Positions 6,622 to 15,130 of a DNA stretch of 64,000 bases are shown in pieces; within the stretch, counting starts at the first letter, position 1; every line of letters starts with the position of its first letter. Origin of the DNA: Chloroflexota bacterium (GTDB taxonomy: Bacteria > Chloroflexota > Dehalococcoidia > Bin125); assembly GCA_026707145.1 (NCBI GenBank), contig JAPOXK010000010.1:1-64000 (forward strand), in the 5' to 3' direction. The translations under genes were made by a program, and so were the position numbers. The notes beneath the pieces are model-generated. The model saw only the letters and a program-made list of their open reading frames with translations. It was not told where the DNA came from and searched no databases.

Positions 6622-8487
6622 ATGGCCGAAGAGCGCGCATACAACGGCAAGATCCTGAACGTCCATCTAGGCTCTGGGGAGGTCACTCCAGAGGAGCTTC
6701 CGGAGCAGATGTACCGCGACTTCCTTGGCGGGTACGGGATCGGGGTGCGCCTGCTTTTCGATCGGATTCCCAAAGGGGCCGATCCGCTGGGTCCGGATAA
6801 CGTGCTCGGCTTGATCTCCGGCCTCATGACAGGGACACCGATCTTCGGTAACCGTTTCCAAGCTGTGTGCAAGAGTCCCTCGACGGGTGGTTGGGGCGAC
6901 GCCAACTGTGGAGGCGATTTCGGCCCGTACTTGAAGTTTGCTGGTTGGGACGGGATCTTGCTCTACGGCCAAGCGGACAAGCCGGTCTACGTCTTTATCG
7001 ATGACGATGAAGTGAGCATCGAAGATGCCTCGGAGTACTGGGGCATCGACGCCATCACCGTCGAGAAGCAGCTCAAGGAGAAGCACGGCAAGAAGGCGTC
7101 GGTCGCCGTGATCGGGCAGAGCGGAGAGAAGCTCTCCTACATGGCGGGAATCTGCAACGATCATGGGCGGCTCGCGGCGCGCTCGGGCGTTGGTGCGGTG
7201 ATGGGGTCTAAGAATCTGAAGGCGGTGGTGGTCAAGTCCAGCCGCCAAATGATTCGCCAGCACGACAAGGCAGCCCGACAGGTGATGCGCTCGTCGCTGG
7301 ACGACTTTGTGGCTCCGGTCCGCGACTTCTTCCGCTCCGTCGGCACCACCGGCATCACCGCCAAGTCTGCCCACAGCGGGGACTCGCCCGTGCAAAATTG
7401 GGGGGGCGTTGGGGTGGAGGTCTTCCAGGATGTCGCCGGCCTGAAGGGCAGGGTCGTCAACGAGAAGATGGAGAAGCATTACGCCTGCTGGCACTGCCCC
7501 CTGGCGTGCGGGGCGGAGAGCGTCGAGTCCACCAACAGCAAGTACCCCTACCCACGCCACACCCACCGTCCCGAGTACGAGACGATGGGCTCCTTCGGGA
7601 CGATGAATCTCATCAACGACCTGGACGCGCTGATCTACGCGAACCACCTCTCCAATGAGTACGGCCTCGACACCATCAGCGCCGGGGGCACGATCTCCTT
7701 TGCGATCGAGTGCTTCGAAAACGGCATCCTGACCGAGGAAGATACGGACGGTCTCGAGCTGCGTTGGGGCAACGACGATGCGATGATCGAGTTGCTCAAG
7801 ATGATCGGCGAGCGCCGCGGTATCGGGGATGTGCTCGCAGACGGAGTGAAGGTGGCTGCGGAGAAGATCGGGAAGGGATCTGAGCAGTATGCGATGCACA
7901 TCGGTGGCGAAGAGCTGCCGATGCACGACCCGAAGCTCCAGCCGGAGTACTTTACCGCTTATAAGATCGACCCGACTCCCGCGCGCCACACGCAGTACGA
8001 AGGTGCGAAGAGCTTGGGAGTGGCGTTCCCGCGGGCTCCCAAGGACAAGCAGGATTACACCAACCGGGGCGAGCACCACAAAGGTGCCGCTGAGTACATG
8101 CACGTCGTCAACGCGACGGGCATGTGCATGTTCATCATGTCGGCGGCGCCGACGGATCGGTTCCCCGAATGGATCAATCAGGTCACCGATTGGGGTATCA
8201 CGGCCGAGGAGCTGCAAAAGGCGGGCGAGCGGATCGGGAACCTGCGGATGGCCTTTGAGGTACGTGAGGGCAACAACCCGGCGAAGCGCGCGGTGCCCGC
8301 GCGCGTGACCGGGGCCGGCGATGCCGTGCAAACCGTGGGCCCGCTGGAAAATGTGACGATCGACGTGGATACGATGCAGCGAGACTTCCTGTCGGCTTGT
8401 GACTGGGACCAGGAGAGCACGGTACCCAGCCGCGCGAAGCTGGAGGAGCTTGGCCTGAAGGATGTCGCGGATGTCGTCCATGCCTAG
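6622..8487 (+). CDS. Aldehyde ferredoxin oxidoreductase family protein (W/Mo-pterin)
   Basis: A 621-residue AOR-family enzyme. It oxidises an aldehyde (or a related substrate) to the acid with ferredoxin as electron acceptor, using a tungsten- or molybdenum-bis-pterin and a 4Fe-4S cluster. The N-terminal AFOR domain (about 5-210) contains the pterin-binding ARSGVGAVMGSKNLKAV stretch. Cluster ligands are Cys289, Cys292, Cys296 (CWHCPLAC) and Cys502 (GMC). Length and Cys spacing match the family. The substrate cannot be told from sequence; bacterial AORs include benzoyl-CoA-related and acetaldehyde types. A MobA-like protein at 62385 could serve its cofactor. Confidence 0.93.
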   Translation: MAEERAYNGKILNVHLGSGEVTPEELPEQMYRDFLGGYGIGVRLLFDRIPKGADPLGPDNVLGLISGLMTGTPIFGNRFQAVCKSPSTGGWGDANCGGDFGPYLKFAGWDGILLYGQADKPVYVFIDDDEVSIEDASEYWGIDAITVEKQLKEKHGKKASVAVIGQSGEKLSYMAGICNDHGRLAARSGVGAVMGSKNLKAVVVKSSRQMIRQHDKAARQVMRSSLDDFVAPVRDFFRSVGTTGITAKSAHSGDSPVQNWGGVGVEVFQDVAGLKGRVVNEKMEKHYACWHCPLACGAESVESTNSKYPYPRHTHRPEYETMGSFGTMNLINDLDALIYANHLSNEYGLDTISAGGTISFAIECFENGILTEEDTDGLELRWGNDDAMIELLKMIGERRGIGDVLADGVKVAAEKIGKGSEQYAMHIGGEELPMHDPKLQPEYFTAYKIDPTPARHTQYEGAKSLGVAFPRAPKDKQDYTNRGEHHKGAAEYMHVVNATGMCMFIMSAAPTDRFPEWINQVTDWGITAEELQKAGERIGNLRMAFEVREGNNPAKRAVPARVTGAGDAVQTVGPLENVTIDVDTMQRDFLSACDWDQESTVPSRAKLEELGLKDVADVVHA

Positions 8488-8592: not shown

Positions 8593-9492
8593 ATGGCCGA
8601 CTCGAAAGTCGTCCTGATTACAGGCACGTCCACCGGCATCGGCGCTGACACCGCGCGGGAGCTCGCCGCCCGCGGCCACCATGTCATCGCTACAATGCGG
8701 AATCCCGATCGGGATGGTCCGCGGGTGCAGGCCGGCTTCGAGGCGAACATGGACGTGACCCGGTGCGATGTCACCGACCAGTCCAGCATTGATGCGGCGT
8801 TCGCGCTCACGCAGGAGAAGTACGGACGGCTGGACGCGCTGGTGAACAACGCCGGCTACACGACCTACGGCGCCGTTTTGGAGCAGACCGAGGAAGAGGT
8901 CCATCGGGTCTTTGATACGAACCTCTACGGCGTGATCCGGATGATGCGCGCTGCCGCGCCGATCATGCGGGAGAGTGGGGGCGGCAAGATCCTTAACGTC
9001 ACCTCGATCGCCGCTCGCTTGATCGGTCCCTTGTTTGGCGTCTATTGCGCGACGAAGACCGGCTTGGAAGCGGTCTCCGAGGCGACCCGCTACGAGCTTG
9101 CCCGGCACGGCATCCAGGTCTGTCTGGTCGCGCCCGGGATCGTCAAGACGGACAACCAATGGCGGTCGTTCGACACGTCGGGTGCCTTCAACGACGGGGT
9201 CAGCGAGTATCAGGAGACCATGCAAGGCATGCTTGACGAGGTGCGGAAGGTCGCGTCCGGCCGGCCCGGAGGCCGTCTCAATGCCGTGCAGATGGCGGAC
9301 CTGATCGAGATCGACGAGCAGCCGCTGCCTCTGCGTGTCCCCGTCGGTGAGGACACGATCCGGGCGTTCGCGAACCGGGCGGCGATGAGCGATGACGAGT
9401 GGGAAACCATGCTCTGGACCACGGATCAGGAAGGCTACCCCTTCGGGTTCTTCAAGAACGAGCGGGCAGCGCGCGCCCAGCACTTCGGCTAG
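8593..9492 (+). CDS. Short-chain dehydrogenase/reductase, tandem copy 1
   Basis: A 299-residue NAD(P)-dependent oxidoreductase with the classical SDR pattern. It has the glycine-rich TGTSTGIG at the N-terminus, NNAG near residue 86, and the catalytic YxxxK as YCATK near 152. It is the first of four adjacent paralogues that share TMRNPDRD after strand 2 and a C-terminal segment of the type LPLRVPVG...DDEWE...GYPFGFF. This C-terminal block sets the group apart from generic SDRs and probably shapes the substrate pocket. Substrate unknown. GAAGGGAG precedes the ATG. Confidence 0.9.
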   Translation: MADSKVVLITGTSTGIGADTARELAARGHHVIATMRNPDRDGPRVQAGFEANMDVTRCDVTDQSSIDAAFALTQEKYGRLDALVNNAGYTTYGAVLEQTEEEVHRVFDTNLYGVIRMMRAAAPIMRESGGGKILNVTSIAARLIGPLFGVYCATKTGLEAVSEATRYELARHGIQVCLVAPGIVKTDNQWRSFDTSGAFNDGVSEYQETMQGMLDEVRKVASGRPGGRLNAVQMADLIEIDEQPLPLRVPVGEDTIRAFANRAAMSDDEWETMLWTTDQEGYPFGFFKNERAARAQHFG

Positions 9493-9549
9493 CGTTGACG
9501 ACCAACACGGCTGCGCTGGTTGTCCGCAACCATGACGGGAGCGATCTCC

Positions 9550-10437
9550 ATGGCTGATCCGCAAGTCGTTCTGATCACCGGCGCTTCGCAGGGATTCGGC
9601 GCCGCCACGGCGCGGGAACTCGCCGAGCGCGGCCATACGGTCATCGCGACCATGCGCAACCCCGACCGCGATGCGCCGGCTCTCATTGAAGGGTACACGG
9701 GCCGCATCTACCCTCAGCGGCTCGACGTGACGGACGCGAGCATGATCAGCGCCGCCGTCACCGCCGCCCTGGACCAACACGGCCGGATCGATGCCTTGAT
9801 CAACAATGCCGGCGTGAGCCTCTTCGGCGCCGTGGAGGAGATCACGGATGAAGAGCTCCATCACATCTTGGACGTCAACGTGGTTGGCGCGATGCGCGTG
9901 ATCGGCGCCGTCGCTCCCAGCATGCGAGCGCGCTGCAGCGGCAAGATTATCAACGTCTCCTCCATGGCGGGCCTGATCGGCGGCCCCGCAGTGGGCGGCT
10001 ACTGCGCTTCCAAGTTCGCACTCGAGGCGATTACGGAAGCGCTCCGCTATGAGCTGCAGCCCTGGAGCATCCAGGTTGTCGCCGTGGAGCCGGGGGTCGT
10101 CAATACGGAGATGCTTCACGGCAACCTCTCCGCCATCGCGAGCGTTCGCGAGGGCCGCAGTAGGTACCAAGGCCCTACAGAGGCCCTCATTAAGGGTCTC
10201 CGGGCCGCCGCCAACCGCCGTCAAGGCCCGCGCAGCGTCGCGTCCCAGCTCGCCGACCTGGTCGAGATCGCCGAGCCGCTGCCCCTGCGCGTCCCCATCG
10301 GAGACGACGCGATCCGCATCAGTCAGCAGCGTGGCTTGATGACGGACGACGAGTGGGAGGGCTTCCTCACCTCTTTGCGGGACGAAGGCTTCCCCGGATC
10401 CTACTTTCGAGTCGTCGAAGAGCAGGGCGTCGGGTAG
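9550..10437 (+). CDS. Short-chain dehydrogenase/reductase, tandem copy 2
   Basis: A 295-residue SDR. Motifs are TGASQGFG (cofactor), NNAG and YCASK (catalytic Tyr/Lys), plus the TMRNPDRD and LPLRVPIGDD segments shared with its three neighbours. The ATG at 9550 is preferred over the upstream TTG at 9520 because it matches the start of copies 1 and 4 (M-A-D/S-x-x-V) and has GGGAG before it. A Phe at the last variable position of the cofactor loop (GFG instead of GIG) is shared with copy 4. Confidence 0.9.
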   Translation: MADPQVVLITGASQGFGAATARELAERGHTVIATMRNPDRDAPALIEGYTGRIYPQRLDVTDASMISAAVTAALDQHGRIDALINNAGVSLFGAVEEITDEELHHILDVNVVGAMRVIGAVAPSMRARCSGKIINVSSMAGLIGGPAVGGYCASKFALEAITEALRYELQPWSIQVVAVEPGVVNTEMLHGNLSAIASVREGRSRYQGPTEALIKGLRAAANRRQGPRSVASQLADLVEIAEPLPLRVPIGDDAIRISQQRGLMTDDEWEGFLTSLRDEGFPGSYFRVVEEQGVG

Positions 10438-10465
10438 CCGCCTCCAGGCTGGGAGGGGTTCGTCG

Positions 10466-11380
10466 ATGGAAGTCGCTGAGAAGCTCGCTCCGCGTGTCGT
10501 CATCGTCACGGGCGCCTCCCGCGGTGTCGGCCGCGAGACCGCCCGTGAACTTGCCTTTCGTGGCCATCAGGTCGTCGCGACCATGCGCAATCCGGACCGT
10601 GACGGCCCCGCCGTGGTGCAGGGTTTCGAAAGCCATATCCAAGTCGCCGCTTGCGATATCACGAGCCGCAACGCGACAGAGGCCGCTGCCGCTTTCGCTC
10701 TGGAGCAGCACGGCCGCATTGACGCCCTGGTAAACAACGCGGCGCTGCTCCTGATCGGCGCGATCGAAGAGGTCGTGGATCAAGAGATTCATGACCTCTT
10801 CAATACGAATCTCACAGGCCAGATGCGCATGACGCAGGCCGTTCTGCCCGCGATGCGCCGGCAACAGGGCGGCAAGATCATCACGGTGTCTTCACTCGCC
10901 GGGCGCATCGCCGGGCCTGCTTTCGGCAGCTACTGTGCCTCCAAGTGGGCGCTGGAGGGGCTCATGCAAGCACTGCGCTACGAACTCGCGCCCTTCGGCA
11001 TCGAAGTGAGCCTCATCACGATGGGCGCCTACCGCACGGAGATGCAGTTCAAAAGCACGTTCACCACCCAAAAGCTGCAGGACGGTACGAGTGTCTACCA
11101 AGCGCCCTGCGAGGCCTTCATTGAGGGTGAGAAGGTCCGTGCCAATCTCAATCCCAGTGTACGCACCGTGGCCTGCAACATCGCTGACGCCGTTGAGTTC
11201 CCGGACCCCTTGGCTCTGCACATCCCCGTTGGCTTCGACGTGCACCGCGTAATGCCCCTTCGCGAGCGCATGAGCTACGACGAGTTCGAGGCGATGATCA
11301 GCGGCATGCGCAACGAGGGCTTCCCGGGGTCTTGGTTCGGTACGATCGAGGAGAATCCGCCCGTCCCCGTCGCTGAGTAG
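10466..11380 (+). CDS. Short-chain dehydrogenase/reductase, tandem copy 3
   Basis: A 304-residue SDR with TGASRGVG and YCASK. It has NNAA instead of the usual NNAG in the strand-4 motif. It shares TMRNPDRD with the other copies, but its C-terminal block reads LALHIPVG rather than LPLR-type. These differences suggest it is the most diverged of the four and may act on another substrate. GGGAGGGG lies before the ATG. Only 28 bases separate it from copy 2, so the genes are very likely co-transcribed. Confidence 0.9.
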   Translation: MEVAEKLAPRVVIVTGASRGVGRETARELAFRGHQVVATMRNPDRDGPAVVQGFESHIQVAACDITSRNATEAAAAFALEQHGRIDALVNNAALLLIGAIEEVVDQEIHDLFNTNLTGQMRMTQAVLPAMRRQQGGKIITVSSLAGRIAGPAFGSYCASKWALEGLMQALRYELAPFGIEVSLITMGAYRTEMQFKSTFTTQKLQDGTSVYQAPCEAFIEGEKVRANLNPSVRTVACNIADAVEFPDPLALHIPVGFDVHRVMPLRERMSYDEFEAMISGMRNEGFPGSWFGTIEENPPVPVAE

Positions 11381-11438
11381 TCCGCGTCCCGCAGTGCGGA
11401 GTCGGCGATGTGCGCCGGCGAACGCTTGAAGGAGCCCC

Positions 11439-12329
11439 ATGGCCAGTCCTCAGGTCGTCATTCTCACAGGCAGCTCCAGCGGGTTTGGCGCCGCCGCGGC
11501 GCGGGAACTCGCGGTCCGCGGCCACCACGTGATCGCCACCATGCGCGATCCCGATCGCAGCGGCGCCGCCGTCGCGCAGTCGATGGGCGACAATCTCGAG
11601 GTCCACCGTCTTGATGTCAGGGACCGGGCCTCGATCGACGCGGTCGTTGCGATGGCGCTTGGCCGGCATGGCCGTATCGACGCGCTGGTGAACAATGCGG
11701 GCTACCTCTTGTTGGGCGCCATCGAGGATCTTGGCGAGGACGAGCTTGCCAGCCAGATCGACACGAACCTGATCGGCGGCGTGCGCACGGCGCAAGCGGT
11801 CCTGCCCGCCATGCGTCAGCGGAGGAGAGGCAAGATCATCAACGTTTCCTCGGTCGCCGGCCGGATGACCGGTCCTGCCTTCGGCGCCTACTGTGCCTCC
11901 AAGTGGGCGCTCGAAGCGATGAGCGAGACGCTCCGTTTTGAGGTTTCCCCCTGGGGGATCGATGTCGTGATCGTCGAGCCGGGGACGCAGCACACCGGGG
12001 CGCAGTTCGACAACATGGTGCTCGCCCGCAGGCTTCGGGAGGGCGACAGCCCCTACGCCGGCCCTTGCAATGCGCTCATCCGAGGGCACCAAGGATATGC
12101 CGGCCAGCGACCCGGCCCCCGTACCGTTGGCTCCATGATCGCCGACTTGGTCGAGACCGTGGACCCGCTCCCTCTCCGTCTTCCTATCGGCGACGAAGCC
12201 GCTCTCGTCTTGGGAATGCGCGCTCGTATGTCGGACGAGGAGTTTGAAGAGGCGATGCGGACGATGGACAACGATGGCTTTCCCGGCGCCTACTTCAAGG
12301 CAGTCCGCTCGGAAGCCCCTCCGTCGTAG
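11439..12329 (+). CDS. Short-chain dehydrogenase/reductase, tandem copy 4
   Basis: A 296-residue SDR with TGSSSGFG, NNAG and YCASK. Its motif after strand 2 is TMRDPDRS, a slight change from the other copies. The C-terminal LPLRLPIGDEA and GFPGAYF segments match copies 1 and 2. It ends 3 bases before the end of the convergent methyltransferase gene. All four proteins lack signal peptides or membrane helices and should be cytosolic. Confidence 0.9.
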   Translation: MASPQVVILTGSSSGFGAAAARELAVRGHHVIATMRDPDRSGAAVAQSMGDNLEVHRLDVRDRASIDAVVAMALGRHGRIDALVNNAGYLLLGAIEDLGEDELASQIDTNLIGGVRTAQAVLPAMRQRRRGKIINVSSVAGRMTGPAFGAYCASKWALEAMSETLRFEVSPWGIDVVIVEPGTQHTGAQFDNMVLARRLREGDSPYAGPCNALIRGHQGYAGQRPGPRTVGSMIADLVETVDPLPLRLPIGDEAALVLGMRARMSDEEFEEAMRTMDNDGFPGAYFKAVRSEAPPS

Positions 12330-12332
12330 CGG

Positions 12333-13175
12333 CTAGCTTGGCGTCCAAGTCACGAGCACGATGGTATCTGCCGGCCCTTTGAGCGCGTAGCCGTCGTCGC
12401 GCGCGACAAGGTGATCAACGATTATCTGTCGCAGCAAACGCTCTTTAGCCGACCCGGGACGCAGCCACAGTCGCCGGCGGGCGTCGTTGATCGCCGCTTC
12501 CCACGAGTCGAAGCCCCAGGCACGTTCGGTGATCTTTCGCAGCGCCGGGCGACGGCCGCGCGCTTCCAATAGGCGCAGGAACTCAGGCAGCGCCGGCAAC
12601 GGCGCGTAGGGCGATCCGTGGACGGCCTTCCACAAGCCCGCGAACGCTGCTCCCGGTGCGCGCTCGAGCAGGAGCGCGACGCAAAGCCGTTTCGCCGCTG
12701 CCTCGAACGCGTCGAGGAAAGGACCGATCGCCTCAATGTCGTAGCCGACATGGGTGATCAACGCGACATCCGCTTGCAGCGCGCGCTGGAGGGGCCAGCG
12801 TTCGCCGATCAGATTGAGGTTCTCGATGCCGTGTTGGGCGCGCACCTCCTCCAACACCGTCCGCATCGCCTCACTGGGTTCAACGGCGATGACTCGCTGG
12901 ACGTGGCGGGCCAGCGCCAGCGCGAAGCGGCCGCCTCCCGCACCGACGTCCAGCCAGACCTCTTGGGGGTGCGCCAGCGCCAGCAGGGCGTTAAGGCACA
13001 CATCGTCCCTACGGGTGGGATCGGCACGGAATCTCTCGGCGATGGGTGCGTAAAAGTCGTTGCCGTCGTCCCGCTCGGTGAGGCGCTCCACCTGTGCGTT
13101 GTTGGCGTGCACGCGGGCTCTCCAGTCGGCGAGGCAGAGCTGGTAGTCCGGCATGCTTTTGCTCCCGCTGGTCAT
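12333..13175 (-). CDS. Class I SAM-dependent methyltransferase
   Basis: A 280-residue cytosolic protein. Motif I is VWLDVGAGGGRFA near residue 73, followed by an acidic motif II (IAVEPSE), so it should bind S-adenosylmethionine in a Rossmann fold. The C-terminal half has no motif that reveals the acceptor. Either the ATG at 13175 or the one at 13154 (behind GGGAG) could be the start. It is convergent with the SDR cluster and divergent from the PAC2/FTR pair. Confidence 0.8.
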   Translation of the reverse strand: MTSGSKSMPDYQLCLADWRARVHANNAQVERLTERDDGNDFYAPIAERFRADPTRRDDVCLNALLALAHPQEVWLDVGAGGGRFALALARHVQRVIAVEPSEAMRTVLEEVRAQHGIENLNLIGERWPLQRALQADVALITHVGYDIEAIGPFLDAFEAAAKRLCVALLLERAPGAAFAGLWKAVHGSPYAPLPALPEFLRLLEARGRRPALRKITERAWGFDSWEAAINDARRRLWLRPGSAKERLLRQIIVDHLVARDDGYALKGPADTIVLVTWTPS

Positions 13176-13281
13176 TCGTCCGTCCTGCGACAGCCGGCCA
13201 GGCGAACGGACATGCGCGACCTCATTGACGCGACCGCGCTACGGTAGTGGGGCGGCTCGGCTACAATTGCTGGAGCATCTT

Positions 13282-14196
13282 ATGCATCCCGACTTGCATC
13301 TCGACAAGCCTCCGCCGCTGCGCACGCCCGCCATGATCCTGGCTTGGGGCGGCTGGAGCGACGCGGGCAGTGCCGCCACCCATGGTCTCCGGACGCTGGC
13401 CAACGCCATCGACGCGCAGCCATGCGGGTCCATTGACCCGGAGAACTACTACGACTTTTCCGTGACGCGCCCGTTCGCCCGCTACCGCAATGGGGAGCGG
13501 GAGATCGTCTGGCCCAGCACGGACTTCTACTACGGCGCGCCGGCCGAGGCCGATCGCGACTTGGGCATCGCCATCGGTTCCGAACCGGCCAATCGCTGGC
13601 GAAGCTACATGGAGGCGCTGTTTGACGGGGTGGAAGCTTTCGGCACCGAGCTCGTCATTTCACTGGCGGCGGTCGCCGCGCCCGTTCCCCATACGCGGCC
13701 CGTGGTGGTCTGGGGTGCCGCCAACACGGCTGAGCTGGCGGAGAAACATAACATGCACCCCCCCGCCTACGAGGGACCGACCGGCATCGTCGGCGTCTTC
13801 CACGACTACTGCCGCCGCAAGAACGTCGGTGCGATCAGCCTCTGGGCGAGCGTGCCCCACTATCTCGGCGACACGACGAATCCCGTCGGCTCACTGGCGT
13901 TGCTCGAGCGTCTGCAGAAGGTCCTCGATCTGTCCCTCCCGCTCGCCGGGCTGCGCTCGGAGATCTCGCTGTTCCAGGAACAGGTCGATCGGGCGATCGC
14001 TCGTGACGACGACCTCGCCTCCTATGTGCGCCGCCTTGAATCGTCCGGCAGCCAGCTCGCCTCCTTCGAACCGCTTGCGTCGCGTTCGGAGGAGTTGCCA
14101 CCGGCCGAGTCGCTGATCGAGGACTTGGAGCAGTTCCTGCGCGGCACCCAGCAAGATGGCTCCTCACCGCAAGAAGGCGAGCCTCGCGGTGGCTGA
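13282..14196 (+). CDS. PAC2-family protein, copy 1
   Basis: A 304-residue protein of the PAC2 (proteasome assembly chaperone 2-like) family. Recognisable blocks are ILAWGGWSDAGSAA at the N-terminus, YEGPTGIVGVFHDYCR in the middle and the SLWASVPHYL segment. A charged helical tail completes the protein. It is a paralogue of the protein at 25471. PAC2 homologues are common next to or in place of proteasome components in actinobacteria and Chloroflexota, but their role there is unknown. The ATG at 13282 follows TGGAG. Its 3' end overlaps the next gene, which suggests translational coupling. Confidence 0.85.
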   Translation: MHPDLHLDKPPPLRTPAMILAWGGWSDAGSAATHGLRTLANAIDAQPCGSIDPENYYDFSVTRPFARYRNGEREIVWPSTDFYYGAPAEADRDLGIAIGSEPANRWRSYMEALFDGVEAFGTELVISLAAVAAPVPHTRPVVVWGAANTAELAEKHNMHPPAYEGPTGIVGVFHDYCRRKNVGAISLWASVPHYLGDTTNPVGSLALLERLQKVLDLSLPLAGLRSEISLFQEQVDRAIARDDDLASYVRRLESSGSQLASFEPLASRSEELPPAESLIEDLEQFLRGTQQDGSSPQEGEPRGG

Positions 14197-14689
14197 CGTT
14201 CCCAGCGCCGACGACCGCGAGGAGGCTTCCGAGAAAAGCCTCAATCGGATGTGGAAATTCGTCCGTTCCTACACGGCGAAGAGCGGGACGTTCCTGCACC
14301 CCCAGCCCGAGATCACCGAGGCGCTGGTGATCGGCCTCGCCAAGCATGTGGATGAGTTCGGACGGCCCCTCTGCCCCTGCAACTTTTACGAGGATAAGGC
14401 GGAGGAGGTTAAGTCCTCGACCTGGATCTGCCCGTGCGACGAGATGCAGAAGTGGAAGTATTGTCACTGACTGCTCTTTTGCGATTCGGAAGGTCTTCCG
14501 ATCACCGAGTACCTCCCCGAAGATCACGAAGGCCGTGAGATCTATGGGGTGATTCGAGACCCTACGCCCGACAAGGGGCGGGCGATCGGGAAGCTGCAGG
14601 AGAAGACGGGCCGCACGATTCAGAAAAAGAAGCGGGGAGAGGAAAAGAAGCGAGGAGATAGCGAGGGTGTCGAGGGCGCGGGCGACTAA
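14156..14689 (+). CDS. Selenocysteine-containing ferredoxin-thioredoxin reductase catalytic subunit (in-frame TGA)
   Basis: The frame encodes 104 residues, TGA at 14468-14470, then 72 more residues to TAA at 14687. Before the TGA the protein matches the FTR catalytic (beta) subunit: SGTFLHP, GRPLCPCNFYEDKAEEV, STWICPC and KYCH. The family continues C-H-C-x-L-F; here it is C-H-TGA-L-L-F, followed by plausible FTR sequence and a Lys/Glu-rich tail. The missing residue is the second active-site cysteine (Cys87 in Synechocystis), which faces the 4Fe-4S cluster. The other five cysteines of the CPC/CPC/CH set are kept. With the hairpin at 14483-14503 this reads as a selenoprotein with Sec at residue 105. 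FTR passes ferredoxin electrons to a thioredoxin disulfide. A GTG at 14189 behind AAGGCGAG is an alternative start. The gene overlaps PAC2 by up to 41 bases. A standard gene caller would end it at 14470. Confidence 0.85.
14483..14503 (+). promoter_or_regulatory. Bacterial SECIS element in the FTR-like gene
   Basis: The RNA can fold as GAU, bulged U, CGGA, loop AGGUCU, UCCG, AUC. The GGU in the loop starts 21 bases after the TGA. The E. coli fdhF SECIS minihelix has the same AGGUCU loop, a short stem and a bulged U below it, with GGU 18 bases after its UGA. SelB binds this element together with Sec-tRNA to recode UGA. The match is read by eye and has not been scored by a program. Confidence 0.8.
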
Positions 14690-14824: not shown

Positions 14825-15130
14825 ATGGCGAAGAAAAGCCAGGTCGCCCGCGACGCGAAGCGCCGCGCCATGTACGACAAGCACAGCGCGCGCCGCGCCG
14901 AACTCAAGGCCAAGCTCAAGGCGTCCTGGGACGCCCCCATGACTCGCTCGGAGATTCAGGCCGAGCTGCAGTCGATGCCGCGCAACAGTAGCCCCACCCG
15001 GCTCAAGAACCGCTGCGCCGTCACGGGACGATCGCGGGGCTACATGCGCAAGTTCGGGCTCTCCCGCATCAGCTTCCGGGAGATGGCTTCCGAAGGTCTC
15101 TTGCCGGGCATTCGCAAGGCCTCCTGGTAG
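14825..15130 (+). CDS. rpsN: 30S ribosomal protein S14
   Basis: A 101-residue S14 of the long, zinc-free type. It starts [10 protein letters not shown] and ends with the conserved [19 protein letters not shown]...[11 protein letters not shown]. The C-x2-C...C-x2-C zinc ribbon of the short form is absent, and only one cysteine is present. It lies alone, away from the spc ribosomal operon where S14 normally sits. That suggests either a dispersed operon or a second, zinc-independent copy made under zinc limitation. Confidence 0.95.

Follow-up and report, generated by a model that had tools for sequence, protein, structure and literature searches.

The window, meaning the whole stretch of 64,000 nucleotides that was analysed, is contig C3 in a 28-contig genome of 2.42 Mb that is 92.6% complete. 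The source probably belongs to the class Dehalococcoidia, as the named loci nearest to it come from Dehalococcoidia or Chloroflexi MAGs. The window encodes a protein of the ferredoxin-thioredoxin reductase (FTR) catalytic chain type, whose reading frame contains a single in-frame TGA codon (Table 1). FTR uses an iron-sulfur cluster to cleave a disulfide in successive one-electron steps. The gene order in the family to which the window belongs (f1) is PAC2, the FTR with a predicted selenocysteine (Sec-FTR), S14 and an ABC transporter, and 12 out of 46 compared neighbour loci contain an S14-like gene. The initial annotation placed the frame at 14156..14689. Its end and the TGA stand, while the start probably has to be moved to the GTG codon that overlaps the PAC2 stop, since relatives open with MADV.. 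where the window GTG gives VADV... Elsewhere in the window, an aldehyde ferredoxin oxidoreductase gene (6622-8487) precedes four tandem frames (8593-12329) that are mutually alike and, named by eye, resemble short-chain dehydrogenases.

Table 1. Coordinates of the Sec-FTR gene, its motifs and its neighbours in the window (U, Sec; U+4, fourth residue behind it)
Feature	Position	Strand	Remarks
PAC2-family gene	13153..14196	+	upstream, overlaps FTR start; ends in TGA
Sec-FTR catalytic chain	14189..14689	+	166 residues with UGA read as Sec; probable GTG start
Alternative FTR start, ATG	14156	+	possible; gives 177 residues
First CPC	14372..14380	+	read from sequence; aligned to solved FTRs
Second CPC	14432..14440	+	read from sequence; aligned to solved FTRs
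Cys of CHU	14462..14464	+	sequence and alignment; CH-UGA is 14462-14470, followed by LLF-C
In-frame TGA, predicted Sec	14468..14470	+	residue 94 of 166 (105 from the 14156 start)
TGC, Cys at U+4	14480..14482	+	
Predicted bacterial SECIS hairpin	14486..14501	+	UCGGAA-GGUC-UUCCGA; core 14488-14499
TAA stop of Sec-FTR frame	14687-14689	+	
Ribosomal protein S14 gene	14825..15130	+	downstream

When the UGA is read through, the protein has PF02943 (FeThRed_B) as its sole Pfam match (E 1.2e-24, 86.8 bits against a cut-off of 22), and this match covers residues 29-112, the TGA included. An AlphaFold2 model of the protein (pLDDT 85.4) was compared with known structures using Foldseek, and the ten top matches to this predicted model are all FTR chains, the best being 7bzk with an rmsd of 1.5. 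In the Foldseek alignments, the identity to plant and cyanobacterial FTR is 41-45% over 86-89 columns and 31-38% in longer alignments. The CPC..CPC..CH-TGA pattern with 72 in-frame codons up to a TAA, on which the initial annotation was built, is present in the sequence: five of the six conserved FTR cysteines (CPC, CPC, CHC) are in place and the sixth place is occupied by UGA, so that the set would be complete with Sec inserted there and counted as Cys. We take the first CPC to represent Cys55 (the first cluster Cys) and Cys57 (the exposed active-site Cys) of Synechocystis FTR, the second CPC to represent the cluster ligands Cys74 and Cys76, the Cys of CHU to be the ligand Cys85 and the TGA to align with Cys87. 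The Cys57 place is a regular TGC codon (14378-14380), and the gene holds one in-frame UGA only. The assignment of the replaced residue to the cluster-facing position agrees with the alignment to solved FTRs and with general structural knowledge of the enzyme. A second, remote FTR-like protein is encoded in the same genome (L002, G000:C4:3968-4189); it carries CPC-CVC-CFC, is without Sec and has no NCBIfam match. Two PF02943 matches are found in most f1 genomes.

A frame with one TGA is found in 18 of the 20 genomes of the window's family, the remaining two being G019, in which the contig ends before the site, and G001, which is without a match. The TGA is also found at the same site in other families of the class. 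Of the 393 genomes of the class, 191 contain a match to FTR, and the listed matches carry zero, one or two TGA codons. The ordinary stop without a conserved downstream frame that the initial annotation had proposed to look for in related genomes was not what these relatives display. In a sample of 399 genomes of the phylum, 26 match FTR; two of these lie outside the class and both are without TGA, so that no Sec-FTR was found outside the class in this sample. Two FTR matches carry an in-frame TAG (G063:C376:1010-1261 and G107:C1:2001942-2002388). In addition, Sec-FTRs of the window type are found in L202, L233, L239 and L245, entries titled Thermoflexus hugenholtzii or Dehalococcoides mccartyi, although these titles may be wrong.

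Exchange between Cys and Sec, as suggested by the initial annotation, is seen among the homologues. The 164 profile hits from the loci comprise 109 distinct domain sequences, of which five short or remote ones were left out, and the resulting 104 rows contain 64 single-Sec, 13 double-Sec and 27 non-Sec forms. Sec is confined to two columns, presumably those of the two redox-active residues of FTR: the Cys87 place in 77 rows and the Cys57 place in 13 of those. The cluster-ligand columns hold Sec in none of the 104 rows. A tree of these rows and two solved FTRs was built from 87 columns, which do not include the Sec positions or U+4. It is unrooted, with long branches and unsettled bootstrap values, and gains are not separable from losses in it. 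Three deep groups can be distinguished. Clade A, the window type, has the pattern CPC..CPC..YCHU-LLF-C; clade B has two Sec residues (CPU..CPC..CIU) and occupies one side of a branch with support 100/95; clade C is characterized by CPCR..CPC.YRD..CYU-GLYV. The single-Sec state requires eight changes on this tree, at least six of which are forced by well-supported branches. In an AU test, a single clade of all 64 single-Sec rows is rejected (p 1.4e-80), a value to be taken with caution given the few columns, long branches and unsettled bootstrap. The clade C member L154, the sole one scanned, has a rubredoxin-like domain at its C-terminus. Each of the loci L148-L155 encodes a clade C FTR that shares the place of the window's Sec and immediately follows a glutaredoxin-like gene.

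The conserved stretch behind the UGA is predicted to fold as a SECIS hairpin. In all 56 distinct clade-A Sec genes, GGAA-GGTC-TTCC starts at one fixed distance, 17 bases behind the UGA, and is conserved down to the wobble bases, so that codons U+7 to U+9 read GAA GGT CTT in 56 of 56. The clade-A Cys genes use other codons there (GGT in 1 of 15, CTT in 0 of 15) and the hairpin is found in none of the 15. Likewise, among the best 80 of 340 named loci, many of which are from the same genomes as the first set, the hairpin core is present in all 59 Sec forms and absent from all 21 Cys forms. The GGUC loop is that of the E. coli fdhF SECIS. Covariation is modest, with the four core pairs invariant and double changes in the outer pairs only, and a register slid by one column has a higher covariation score than the proposed hairpin. 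For the 40 bases that follow the UGA in the window, the minimum-energy fold is a structure other than this hairpin (z -0.73; 44 of 200 shuffles fold as well), and an Rfam search of the locus gave no SECIS match, its two matches being far below gathering scores. The sequences behind the UGA in clades B and C are unlike the clade A hairpin.

The selenocysteine machinery, selA, selB, selD and tRNA-Sec, for which the initial annotation had recommended a search, is present in the window's genome. SelA (507 bits), SelB (333.7) and SelD (361.4) all score above the curated cut-offs, SelD carries an in-frame TGA of its own, and a tRNA-SeC with anticodon TCA is located on a contig other than that of the window. 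The UGA is predicted to be read as Sec because the conserved predicted hairpin follows it and the genome holds this machinery. Co-occurrence was assessed in 101 genomes whose FTR domain stayed as a distinct row, with kinship uncorrected throughout. In genomes at least 90% complete, SelB is found in 45 of 45 with Sec-FTR and in 6 of 17 whose FTRs are all of the Cys form; in the full set of 101 genomes these counts are 66 of 76 and 8 of 25. A hand count of tRNA-Sec (E <= 1e-11) gives 67 of 76 Sec-FTR genomes and 12 of 25 Cys-only genomes. The ten Sec-FTR genomes without SelB are all less than 90% complete and eight of them have a tRNA-Sec (G074, G164, G199, G209, G250, G289, G299, G328); in the other two, G242 and G348 (76% and 86% complete), neither SelB nor tRNA-Sec was found. 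Six genomes have SelB and no tRNA-Sec match under strict filters (G006, G014, G024, G134, G309, G358). A Cys clade of five rows (G101, G226, G319, G338, G124) lies near Sec rows with support 100/100. Neither a SelB above the cut-off nor a tRNA-Sec was found in G101 (96% complete), G226 (72%), G319 (72%) and G338 (88%); G124 contains SelB and has a Sec copy as well. SelB is also found in other Cys-form genomes, such as G022, G048 and G093, as expected if Cys is tolerated at this place.

Two alternative readings of the codon have to be weighed against these observations. If the UGA were an ordinary stop, it would end a truncated protein or pseudogene and the frame behind it would decay. UGA does act as a normal stop in this genome, since the PAC2 gene ends in TGA, and a general recoding of UGA was rejected on the same observation. 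Furthermore, a database lists a fragment of 104 residues that stops at the TGA (P0070, the one entry identical to the window protein among the 120 listed out of 2126 matches). The openness of the frame is weak evidence by itself, as 71 open codons have a chance of ~0.17 at 65% GC. However, the frame behind the UGA appears to be under purifying selection, as median pN divided by median pS gives 0.23 over 34 codons in 53 comparisons with relatives (0.11 over the 15 codons before the UGA, against 55 relatives). Taken together with the recurrence of the TGA in the family and the class and with the invariant hairpin bases, this makes an ordinary stop very improbable, and it was rejected on the conserved frame and hairpin bases. 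It is also conceivable that the UGA is read as another residue such as Trp, or by non-programmed readthrough. Database protein P0024 has Trp at the Sec place (CHW-LLFC), which probably reflects a gene caller using a code in which UGA means Trp. This reading is at odds with the TGC or TGT codons found at the UGA place in all 27 non-Sec rows, with the presence of SelA, SelB, SelD and tRNA-Sec and with the correlation of SelB with the Sec form, and we likewise consider it highly unlikely. An FTR in which selenocysteine replaces the final active-site Cys, as originally put forward, is the best reading of the PF02943 match, the machinery and the Cys/Sec exchange.

The Sec of clade A is accompanied by a Cys at U+4, which is present in 54 of 56 Sec rows (TGC in 45, TGT in 9), whereas all 15 Cys rows have Val. 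Since a sign test on independent tree pairs had at most one informative pair and remained below significance, this contrast (54 of 56 against 0 of 15) stays uncorrected for kinship. Among the best 80 of 340 named loci, 56 of the 59 Sec forms and none of the 21 Cys forms have Cys at U+4, and among the 120 database homologues listed out of 2126, 118 have the full Cys motif, with U+4 being Val in 113, Cys in three and Thr in two. The U+4 Cys is absent from clade B and C rows. The hairpin core is kept in Sec forms without this Cys, so the Cys is not required for the hairpin and may rather have a role in the protein. Three clade-A homologues (P0010, P0011, P0023) have CHC and yet a U+4 Cys; these are possibly recent Sec-to-Cys reversals that retained the linked residue.

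The surroundings of the gene differ between the families and clades. In f2, another family of the class, a thioredoxin-like gene is convergent with Sec-FTR in 25 of 34 loci (tblastn) and in 0 of 5 Cys loci, at 0.4-2.1 kb from gene midpoint to site. Nine of these 25 loci also have a divergent NADPH-thioredoxin reductase-like gene upstream, and the two such genes that were scanned (L106 and L134) score above the TIGR01292 cut-off. In the other families, Sec-FTR is accompanied by thioredoxin in 0 of 12 (f1), 1 of 5 (f17, 2.5 kb off), 0 of 4 (f66) and 0 of 2 (f60) loci, and no thioredoxin gene was found in the 64 kb window (best E 1.3). In addition, a tRNA-SeC gene lies upstream of Sec-FTR and divergent from it in 17 of the 31 f2 Sec loci scanned (L101, L103, L104, L106, L107, L114, L116, L119, L121, L126, L128, L132, L134, L138, L140, L143, L146). 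The two are ~70-136 bases apart in twelve loci and 1.3-2.1 kb apart in five, based on estimated start codons. No tRNA-SeC was found in the 29 other loci of the same scan, nor in the 20 loci of a second scan, which included three repeats and one further f2 Sec locus. In clade C, all 12 loci (eight Sec, four Cys) have a glutaredoxin-like gene immediately upstream of the FTR gene. No SelA, SelB or SelD gene was found near Sec-FTR in the loci scanned, except for a SelA-like piece in L152 and a piece resembling the SelB profile in L151; this is a poor test, as the queries were the longest frame per locus strand and those for SelD were probably not SelD.

We predict, with a probability of roughly 0.86, that the UGA is translated as Sec and that the active site likely contains a Cys-Sec pair, and not two Cys, beside a [4Fe-4S] cluster. 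SelB with Sec-tRNA would recognise the hairpin, which lies 16-31 bases behind the UGA, and insert Sec; when this readout fails, the ribosome would stop and leave a 104-residue fragment like that in the database. Ferredoxin and thioredoxin are assumed to be the partners, as in the family at large. By analogy with plant and cyanobacterial FTR, ferredoxin would hand electrons singly to the cluster. The first electron would break the bond between Cys and Sec; the selenolate, which faces the cluster, would stay bound at the oxidised cluster while the exposed Cys attacks the thioredoxin disulfide, and the second electron would free reduced thioredoxin. Selenium at this site would likely change the way in which cluster electrons reduce thioredoxin. 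Sec at the cluster-facing place would allow easier cleavage, a stabler cluster-bound intermediate and resistance to irreversible oxidation, and the U+4 Cys may act as a resolving or spare thiol.

The substrate could also be a different one, in which case the gene would encode a Sec protein of the FTR fold that serves another disulfide, such as that of a glutaredoxin-like protein, or a selenium or sulfur compound, and not thioredoxin. This would fit the lack of an adjoining thioredoxin gene in all 12 loci of the window's family and of any such gene within the window, the position of the clade C relatives behind a glutaredoxin gene, and the tRNA-Sec neighbourhood in f2, which might point to a function in supplying selenium. 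FtrA is the partner subunit of the catalytic chain in plant and cyanobacterial FTR, and FtrA (PF02941) has no match up to E 10 in the window's 92.6% complete genome, which points in the same direction. Nevertheless, the clade-A relatives of f2 are convergent with a thioredoxin gene in most loci, partly together with the thioredoxin reductase-like gene, and the window protein shows the identity to plant and cyanobacterial FTR given above. A substrate other than thioredoxin seems unlikely to us, if less so than the two alternative readings of the codon.

Returning to a Sec-containing, ferredoxin-driven thioredoxin reductase, a broader scheme can be put forward tentatively and is in our judgement rather doubtful as a whole. 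Here, Sec would have taken the cluster-facing FTR residue at least three times in Dehalococcoidia, in a thioredoxin-linked, a double-Sec and a rubredoxin-fused, glutaredoxin-linked form. The thioredoxin-linked form would operate a Cys-Sec-Cys relay in which the selenolate binds the [4Fe-4S] cluster during turnover, and the placement of tRNA-Sec would tie the making of Sec to ferredoxin-driven thiol supply. A natural swap of sulfur to selenium in separate branches, tracked by SelB, would provide ready Sec/Cys pairs with which to test the control that the cluster-facing atom exerts over the cluster-bound intermediate and over tolerance to oxygen. Since automatic annotation can cut Sec-FTRs to fragments, as happened to the window protein, thiol reduction driven by ferredoxin is probably underrepresented in the records for Dehalococcoidia.

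The window protein shares its predicted fold, the CPC-CPC-CHC layout and 41-45% identity with the FTR catalytic chains of Synechocystis and chloroplasts (1dj7, 7bzk, 2pu9). It differs from these in having UGA at the Cys87 place, Cys instead of Leu at the +4 position and a C-terminal tail of its own, and its genome differs from those of plants and cyanobacteria in being without an FtrA match. The FTR fold is also found in the Methanosarcina ferredoxin-dependent disulfide reductase (4tpu) and the Desulfotalea glutaredoxin/FDR fusion (7pwe), which match the window protein weakly (E 4.6e-3 and 1.1e-2, respectively) and, judged by their names, resemble the rubredoxin-fused clade C in kind.

The initial annotation knew of no described Sec-FTR, which proved to be wrong. 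According to Zhang and Gladyshev (2008), two FTR selenoprotein sequences were predicted from Global Ocean Sampling reads, one of them with two Sec residues (PMC2398784); the other may be of the window's single-Sec type. The double-selenoprotein FtrB of NCBIfam (NF041072) shares the UGA-read Sec at the Cys87 place and carries a second Sec at the Cys57 place. The window protein, which belongs to another deep branch, is not a member, as it has one UGA only and its score of 41 bits lies below the cut-off of 160. Four other clade-A members score 38-48, the double-Sec L018 222.7 and the clade C member L154 52.2. Reviews of 2022 (PMC9312934) and 2026 (PMC13188914) list Sec-FTR as CxU, the latter with two Secs and NF041072. 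The passages on FTR in the 2008 paper mention no SelB correlation, thioredoxin neighbour or tRNA-Sec linkage, and a search of the open-licence literature gave no account of a single-Sec family, a rubredoxin-fused form, the U+4 cysteine or the tRNA-Sec linkage. Sec-FTR as such is thus not new, having been predicted in 2008. As far as our searches show, the new elements are the family-wide single-Sec form of FTR, the rubredoxin-fused Sec form, the Sec-linked U+4 Cys and the linkage to tRNA-Sec.
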